A stretch of 12,765 nucleotides of DNA from Nitrospirae bacterium CG2_30_53_67 (GTDB taxonomy: Bacteria > CG2-30-53-67), in assembly GCA_001873285.1 (NCBI GenBank), contig MNYV01000132.1:1-12765 (forward strand). The letters are read 5' to 3'. The notes below the pieces were generated by a model. It was not told the origin of the DNA and did not search any database. It worked only from the letters and a program-made list of their open reading frames with translations. This document shows, one piece after another, positions 1,938-4,195 of this stretch (its first letter is position 1; each line of letters begins with the position of its first letter). A program made the position numbers and the translations under genes.

Positions 1938-2504
1938 ATGGAGAATCAGATTATCTGGAAAACCGATCTGAAAGAGGCCCTGAAGACAAGCAGGAAGGAA
2001 AACAAACCGCTTCTGATTGATTTTTTCAACCCGGGTTGAAGCGGGTGTCAGAAGATGGGTGCAGTTACGTACCCAAGTCAGGATGTGGTTGATTTTGTGA
2101 ATGCCAATTTTATCCCGCTCAAGTTCGACAGCGCCAGGGATCAGAAAAGATTTAATGAATTCAATGCCCAGTGGACACCCACGATTATTATTTATGATCA
2201 GAATCAGAAAGAGCATCACCGTACCACGGGTTATCTCTCGCCGGAAACCTTCCTGAGCGAGATGAGGCTGGGGCTTGCCAAGATGGAATATGACCTGAAG
2301 CGTTATAACGAGGCCCTTCAGGCGTACAAACAGGTCATTCAGGCCTATCCGGAGACAGCGGCTGCGCCCGAGGCACTCTATTTCTCGGGTGTATGCAACT
2401 ATATGGCCACGCACGATCCGTCGCATCTCAAGGAGACATTCACGGCATTGAAAGAAAAATATCCCAGGAGCGATTGGACGCGGAAGGCCGAGGTCTGGTC
2501 GTAA
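1938..2504 (+). CDS. Putative selenoprotein: thioredoxin-fold protein with TPR-like C-terminus
   Basis: Read through one in-frame TGA (2037-2039), this is a 188-residue protein. The N-terminal part is thioredoxin-like: helix KEALKTSRKENK, strand PLLIDFFNPG (24-33), then U34-S-G-C37-QKM, then a cis-Pro-type segment WTPTIIIYD and GYLSPETFL. Both sides of the TGA continue the same fold, and the TGA falls exactly on the first Cys of the CxxC motif, giving a UxxC redox pair. Residues from about 115 (YDLKRYNEALQAYKQVIQAY, then APEALYFSGVCNYM and LKEKYPRSDW) resemble a tetratricopeptide/BamD-type repeat region. AAGGAGG at 1924-1930 lies seven bases before ATG 1938; in-frame ATGs at 1932 and 1935 are too close to it. 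No signal peptide is seen, so a cytoplasmic thiol/selenol oxidoreductase is inferred. The alternative is a gene killed by a Cys-to-stop mutation. A standard gene caller would report only 2055-2504. Confidence 0.8.
2037..2075 (+). promoter_or_regulatory. UGA(Sec) codon with bacterial SECIS-like hairpin
   Basis: Sixteen bases after the TGA (2037-2039) a 7-bp stem forms: 2056-2062 (TGGGTGC) with 2069-2075 (GTACCCA), containing one G-U pair, around a six-base loop AGTTAC (2063-2068). Known bacterial SECIS hairpins lie inside the reading frame right after the UGA, with an apical loop roughly 16-37 bases away and a G in the first loop positions. Loop distance (23 bases) and the G at the second loop base both fit. 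This would recruit SelB with Sec-tRNA. Confidence 0.7.
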
Positions 2505-3111: not shown

Positions 3112-3486
3112 GTGTACGAGCTGACGGTAACCGGACGGTTCTCGGCCGCCCATCAGTTGAGAAACTATAAAGGCAAATGCGAGAACCTGCACGGCCACAA
3201 CTGGAAGGTAGAGGCGACCGTTACGGCAGCGGACTTAAATGAGATCGGTCTGGGCATGGATTTCAAGGATATCAAGCATGCGCTTAACGATATTCTGAAT
3301 GAGTTGGATCATCTTCATTTGAATGATCTTCCCATGTTTCAAACCGAAAACCCCTCCTCCGAAGTCATCGCCCGGTGGATTTTTGAACGTCTCTCCGAAC
3401 ATTTGGACAGTAAGCGTGTGCAGGTTGCCCGGGTGACCGTCTGGGAGTCGGACGATGCCTGCGCGACCTATATTCCGGAGCCATGA
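3112..3486 (+). CDS. queD: 6-carboxy-5,6,7,8-tetrahydropterin synthase QueD
   Basis: QueD converts 7,8-dihydroneopterin triphosphate to 6-carboxytetrahydropterin, the second step to queuosine and other 7-deazaguanines. It is a cytoplasmic zinc enzyme of the PTPS fold. The 124 residues match the family's usual length. His14 (SAAHQL), His27 and His29 (NLHGH) are the zinc ligands, Cys23 in CENLHGH is the catalytic cysteine, and GLGMDFKDIK, LDHLHLND and NPSSEVIARWIFERL are family landmarks, with the conserved Glu near the C-terminus in VTVWES. The start is GTG 3112, six bases after AGGAG; the ATG overlapping it at 3110 is out of frame and meets a stop after four codons. It overlaps queC by 32 bases, so the two are translationally linked. 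Confidence 0.95.
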   Translation: MYELTVTGRFSAAHQLRNYKGKCENLHGHNWKVEATVTAADLNEIGLGMDFKDIKHALNDILNELDHLHLNDLPMFQTENPSSEVIARWIFERLSEHLDSKRVQVARVTVWESDDACATYIPEP

Positions 3487-4195
3487 GTTGGCTGCTTCCT
3501 CTCAGATCATCCTCCTCTCCGGCGGCCTGGATTCGGTGGTGAATCTCGTGATGGCCCGTGAAAAAGGGACGGTCCTTTCCTGCCTGACCTTTGATTACGG
3601 TCAGCGCTCATCCGCCCGAGAGATCACGGCCTGCCAAAGGGTTTGCGCACAGTTCTCCCTCCCGCACCGCGTGATTTCACTTCCCTGGATGCAGGAGATC
3701 GCTTCTTCTTCTCTGATTCGGGGAAGAGGGGAGGTTCCTCGCTTGAGCAGGGAGGATCTGTCCGACGCGGAAAGAACCAAGGAGACCGCCCGCTCCGTCT
3801 GGGTCGCAAACCGGAACGGGGTTTTCATCAATATCGCCGCGGCCGTTGCCGAATCCCTGGGCGCCTCTCTGATGGTGACGGGGTTCAACCGGGAGGAAGC
3901 GGAGACCTTCCCCGACAATTCAAAGGCCTTTCTAAATGCGGTCAATGCATCCCTTGCCTATTCCACCCTCAATCAGGTTCGAGTCATCAGTTATACGCCG
4001 GAGATGGATAAAACAGAGGTCGTTCTGGCCGGGCTCAAATACCATGTTCCCTTTGAAGAGATCTGGAGCTGTTACCACGGCGGTGAAAAGATGTGCGGTG
4101 CATGCGAGTCATGCCGGAGGCTGAAACGGGCTGTTTCGGGGACCGATGCGGAAGTCCGGCTGAGGGATCGCTTTTTCAGTGAGGGGGGTTCTTAA
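3455..4195 (+). CDS. queC: 7-cyano-7-deazaguanine synthase QueC
   Basis: QueC makes preQ0 from 7-carboxy-7-deazaguanine, ammonia and ATP. The ATP-pyrophosphatase P-loop SGGLDS is at 22-27, followed by LTFDYGQR, and the zinc site is Cys206, Cys214, Cys217 and Cys220 (CYHGGEKMCGACESC). VANRNGVFINIAAAVAESLG and TGFNREEAETFPDNS are also diagnostic. At 246 residues it is slightly long: homologues begin a few residues before the P-loop strand, and a TTG at 3488, two bases after the queD stop and seven after GGAG, gives a more usual N-terminus. ATG 3455 inside queD is kept because GGGAG lies about eight bases before it. QueE and later queuosine enzymes are not in the window. It ends convergently with the next gene, stop codons overlapping. 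Confidence 0.95.
   Translation: MPARPIFRSHELAASSQIILLSGGLDSVVNLVMAREKGTVLSCLTFDYGQRSSAREITACQRVCAQFSLPHRVISLPWMQEIASSSLIRGRGEVPRLSREDLSDAERTKETARSVWVANRNGVFINIAAAVAESLGASLMVTGFNREEAETFPDNSKAFLNAVNASLAYSTLNQVRVISYTPEMDKTEVVLAGLKYHVPFEEIWSCYHGGEKMCGACESCRRLKRAVSGTDAEVRLRDRFFSEGGS

Follow-up and report, generated by a model that had tools for sequence, protein, structure and literature searches.

Nitrospirae bacterium CG2_30_53_67 encodes, at positions 1938-2504 of the forward strand of the window (the whole stretch of DNA that was analyzed, 12,765 nucleotides, contig MNYV01000132.1), a protein of 188 residues in which, judging from its sequence and from those of its homologs, the in-frame TGA at 2037-2039 is read as selenocysteine (Sec). 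Decoding is directed by a SECIS hairpin at 2056-2075 and gives a U-S-G-C redox centre. The overall explanation that we favor, with a probability of roughly 0.88, is that SelB-dependent Sec decoding produces a cytosolic thiol:disulfide reductase whose tetratricopeptide repeat (TPR) tail binds a client or a partner. Sec decoding at this site had been put forward in an earlier note made from the DNA letters alone, and it is now supported by the sel genes of the host, the occurrence of TGA or Cys in homologs, the SECIS and the tree of the family. The window is a complete contig and belongs to a draft genome of 2.36 Mb from a phylum (GTDB) that is sparsely sampled, with eight genomes.

A single frame runs, as described in the earlier note, from the ATG at 1938 across the TGA to the TAA at 2502-2504 and contains the motif U34-S-G-C37, with the TGT of the resolving Cys37 located at 2046-2048; this Cys is invariant in an alignment of 68 rows. 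The ribosome site claimed in the same note is also present, in the form of the Shine-Dalgarno sequence AAGGAGG at 1924-1930, 7 nt before the ATG. Since the ATGs at 1932, 1935 and 1938 share one frame, the exact start is not fixed; the best Shine-Dalgarno spacing is that of ATG 1938, and the start could lie two codons earlier.

A protein search in 145 genomes yielded seven full-length copies, one of them that of the window; at the active site, L024 has Cys and the other six have TGA. A DNA pattern admitting TGA, TGC or TGT (TGH) at this site matched at least 119 contig stretches. Among the matches listed, taken together with the window and two other loci, TGA was found in 120 of 121 distinct matches, a ratio of 120:1 that is not a census because the pattern requires residues following the motif and therefore favors Sec forms. 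The one TGC match of the pattern (L114) was rejected as a chance match with no homologous frame. A profile search of 48 Geobacteraceae genomes, which is free of the bias of the DNA pattern, revealed about 20 copies interrupted by a single TGA and about 20 that have none; those of the latter that were read carry TGC or TGT at residue 34. The collected full-length set, built in part from the matches listed, comprises 129 genes with TGA and 15 with Cys (TGC/TGT), and no other codon occurs. The proposal that the TGA takes the place of the first Cys of a CxxC motif is in line with this distribution, residue 34 being TGA or Cys and nothing else. The TGA homologs are drawn from many phyla, with members found in Syntrophaceae and Geobacteraceae, and a TGA copy is present in genome G182 (L191). 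A protein-based scan of contigs yielded no match, probably since its active-site pattern codes for Cys where the DNA has TGA, and the viral contigs searched yielded none either.

In the tree of the family, the Cys forms of Geobacteraceae constitute one clade nested inside the Sec forms, so that Sec has been replaced by Cys in this lineage; overall, two changes to Cys are seen. The Geobacteraceae genomes with Cys forms keep selA. This clade thereby represents a clean natural experiment in which Sec changed to Cys and the SECIS was lost while selA was kept.

The SECIS hairpin of the window consists of a stem (2056-2062 paired with 2069-2075) and a loop at 2063-2068 (AGUUAC) with an inner pair 2063-2066 and the exposed G2064-U2065, and it is backed by its minimum free energy (MFE), by conservation and by covariation. 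Its MFE amounts to -10.8 kcal/mol, and equal stability was reached in just 1.7% of synonymous recodings. With a GU in the loop, a spacing of 23 nt from the TGA and this MFE, it fits the bacterial SECIS model, which specifies a G within the first two positions of the loop, a spacing of 16-37 nt and an MFE of -7.5 or lower (PMC13188914). Rfam gave no match in the window. When the TGA is numbered 1-3, positions 21-26 pair with positions 33-38; all six of these pairs are formed in 128 of the 129 Sec genes, whereas the Cys genes form two to four of six (15/15), the hairpin being intact in none of the 15. All 129 Sec genes have T at position 24 and G at position 33, two third codon bases that had been left free by the search pattern. 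The pair 23-36 alternates between A-U and G-C, and the pair 27-30, with both partners at third-codon positions, is complementary in 128 of 129 genes (61% would be expected if the two positions were independent). These two pairs, which lie partly at silent codon positions, covary; the covariation score is 0.334 as compared to 0.153 in shuffles (0 of 500 as high), and the signal is abolished when the pairing partners are slid. The peptide following the motif reads [DG][AT]V[TS]Y in Sec forms and changes to EEVTF or similar in Cys forms. Because of this change, it appears that the RNA, and not protein function, fixes the peptide in the Sec forms, as the sequence comparison suggests. The contrast between Sec, Cys and SECIS hence allows RNA and protein constraint at an active site to be told apart.

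It is highly improbable that the TGA is a genuine stop codon or a sequencing error, with the gene being either a pseudogene or one that starts at the ATG at 2055. A standard ORF finder does report a plain ORF at 2055-2504, and a mechanical ORF list begins there as well, so that ordinary annotation loses residues 1-39, as had been anticipated in the earlier note. However, this truncated ORF would be devoid of the strand and the helix with which the thioredoxin fold begins, the 129 full-length genes with TGA at the active-site position stem from many phyla, and the SECIS is retained only where the TGA is. Since homologs with 25-57% identity share the position of the TGA and the hairpin is conserved at silent positions, the TGA is not there by chance, and the stop, error or pseudogene reading is refuted by this conservation.

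The genes for Sec synthesis and insertion which the earlier note had suggested looking for are all present in the host genome, two of them in part: a complete selA (611.6 bits), a tRNA-Sec (selC; 73.9 bits) with the anticodon TCA (ARAGORN), the N-terminal half of SelB (296.8 bits) and the C-terminal half of SelD (158.3 bits), the latter two genes being cut by contig ends. The wing domain of SelB was looked for in the draft genome and not found, which the contig break can account for. In the search of 145 genomes, each of the six sampled genomes that carry a TGA copy also has selA, and G049, the only one whose copy has Cys, has none. In one genome of Geobacteraceae (G195), a TGA copy occurs without any match to selA, and this counts against the favored explanation.

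The architecture of a thioredoxin-like domain followed by a TPR-like tail, also proposed in the earlier note, is backed by Pfam and by the predicted structure. Residues 1-101 (1938-2240) form a domain resembling thioredoxin and the gamma domain of DsbD (DsbD-gamma), which matches PF13098 at 1.9e-15 (68 of the 68 aligned members match this model), and among domains of solved structure it comes closest in sequence to a Bacteroides disulfide isomerase (2kuc) and to DsbD-gamma. W79 and P81 of the WTPT motif (residues 79-82; 2172-2183) are invariant in the 68 rows, and the proline is presumably the cis-Pro of the thioredoxin fold. The tail (residues 102-188; 2241-2501) matches TPR_6 at 1.3e-5, and TPR models in general match it weakly, with 32 of 68 members reaching 0.001 or better. 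AlphaFold2, run on the 68-row alignment, predicts a thioredoxin fold followed by five helices (residues 102-119, 123-136, 142-158, 162-174 and 179-187) at a pLDDT of 97.9 over the whole chain and a pTM of 0.92. When this model was compared with known structures using VIA-align, the N-terminal part resembled DsbD-gamma (Z 12.9-13.6) and residues 101-188 the TPRs of BamD at Z 13.3, a value often reached by helical repeats, as TPR-like helices match many unrelated proteins. No signal peptide was seen in the window protein, which is therefore probably cytosolic.

By its likely mechanism, the selenolate of Sec34 would attack a disulfide of the substrate, and Cys37 would then resolve the mixed selenosulfide, with the TPR tail possibly holding the client or a partner protein. 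The oxidised centre would probably be recharged by a flavoenzyme resembling thioredoxin reductase. The direction as a reductase, the client-binding role of the tail and the flavoenzyme partner are inferred. Two Desulfobulbaceae loci contain, directly downstream of the selenoprotein gene at a distance of 31-54 nt and on the same strand, a FAD oxidoreductase of the pyridine nucleotide-disulphide type that is organized like thioredoxin reductase (L060:3922-4866, Pyr_redox_2, and L138:1228-2097), which hints at a candidate electron donor. A conserved operon or neighbourhood that would name the substrate or reductant was looked for across the loci and not found. In the window itself, queD- and queC-like genes with an overlap of 32 nt lie downstream of the selenoprotein gene (3112-4195). 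The gap after the selenoprotein gene contains an imperfect inverted repeat of 25 nt (2621-2645 and 2753-2777); the intergenic sequence in which it lies is rich in G and in C and looks like dispersed repeats. An ORF of 98 amino acids at 422-718 is similar to the start of DUF488-type proteins, has no Pfam match and is possibly truncated or frameshifted.

Gene context also bears on a role of the protein in selenium metabolism itself, for example in the reduction of selenium compounds for SelD. In six Geobacteraceae genomes (G147, G148, G153, G184, G185 and G186; L217-L222), a distance of 3-7 kb separates the TGA form from selA, and in a Desulfobulbales contig (L164) the two are about 1 kb apart. 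Such a role is nevertheless improbable: the linkage is not that of an operon, with unrelated genes in between, most other loci including the window show no linkage to selA, and the genomes with Cys forms keep selA in an unlinked position, roughly 80-300 kb away where both share a contig. Somewhat likelier, and still improbable, is the idea that the protein is the Sec counterpart of the chaperedoxin CnoX/YbbN, that is, a TPR holdase whose UxxC motif protects or reduces the cysteines of clients and which perhaps hands these over to GroEL. The best Foldseek matches of the model are indeed E. coli YbbN (3qou) and its Salmonella homolog, which have the same order of thioredoxin and TPR domains, and a precedent for an active motif is given by Caulobacter CnoX, which has an active CxxC and functions as an oxidoreductase (PMC8129009). 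On the other hand, superposition with YbbN over the whole chain gives a TM-score of just 0.44 and an rmsd of 12 Å, implying that the packing of the domains differs or that only parts align, the tail has five helices as compared to two subdomains of five in the TPR domain of EcCnoX, and the thioredoxin domain is nearer in sequence to DsbD-gamma than to thioredoxin. There is only a slim chance that the family is a Sec-dependent chaperedoxin of anaerobes, in which a compact thioredoxin-TPR protein would hold damaged clients and repair their disulfides via Sec. To our knowledge, no bacterial folding factor has so far been found to use selenium for the repair of clients, and such a chaperedoxin would, if it exists, be the first. 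The reading as a cytosolic disulfide reductase remains the preferred one.

The statement of the earlier note that this architecture is not known as a named selenoprotein family holds in part. Reviews list a selenoprotein called "thiol:disulfide interchange protein" with PF13098 and UxxC (WP_011366075.1; PMC13188914), and a survey from 2006 reported the family in Syntrophus aciditrophicus, Geobacter metallireducens and G. uraniireducens, and not in G. sulfurreducens (PMC1794560); a related catalog entry is Trx-like 2, cd02953 (PMC2398784). Since domain, motif and taxa agree, with the taxa overlapping at the family level only (Geobacteraceae, Syntrophaceae), the window protein most likely belongs to this catalogued family, as likened by these published features. 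The window protein comes from a sparsely sampled phylum and has a TPR tail; no description of the tail was found in the literature searched on the selenoprotein family, and to this extent the statement stands. Neither the window protein nor a homolog from Desulfofustis scores above the cut-off of any NCBIfam model. As ordinary annotation additionally drops the redox centre, the family is probably under-annotated.

Among other Sec-containing thioredoxin-fold proteins in NCBIfam, the VPGUxxT thioredoxin-like proteins, the Trx7/PDZ selenoproteins and TsoB are distant relatives, which differ in their motif and in having extra domains; the scores are about 19-50 bits, where the cut-offs are 275-805, and the window protein reaches 42 bits with VPGUxxT type 2 (NF041383), below the curated cut-off of 275. 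Two loci (L036:1588 and L039:1591) encode longer, apparently exported thioredoxin-TPR proteins with an in-frame TGA in a UKWC motif, of which L027 and L042 are Cys versions, and this group is possibly a second Sec-containing thioredoxin-TPR subfamily. Two more PF13098 matches with an in-frame TGA are found in Geomobilimonas luticola (G148:C11:1180434-1180676 and 228786-229028).

The window protein resembles DsbD-gamma in fold (Z about 13), in sequence (23-24% identity) and in having a motif of the reductase type; however, DsbD-gamma terminates a membrane protein on the periplasmic side, whereas the window protein has no signal peptide or membrane part and carries the TPR tail. With CnoX/YbbN it shares the succession of a thioredoxin domain and a TPR domain, and it differs in its shorter tail, its DsbD-gamma-like N-terminal domain and the Sec at the position at which CnoX/YbbN has Ser or Cys. 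It is most likely a cytosolic disulfide reductase with a tail that would bind a client or partner protein, a layout analogous to that of CnoX/YbbN.
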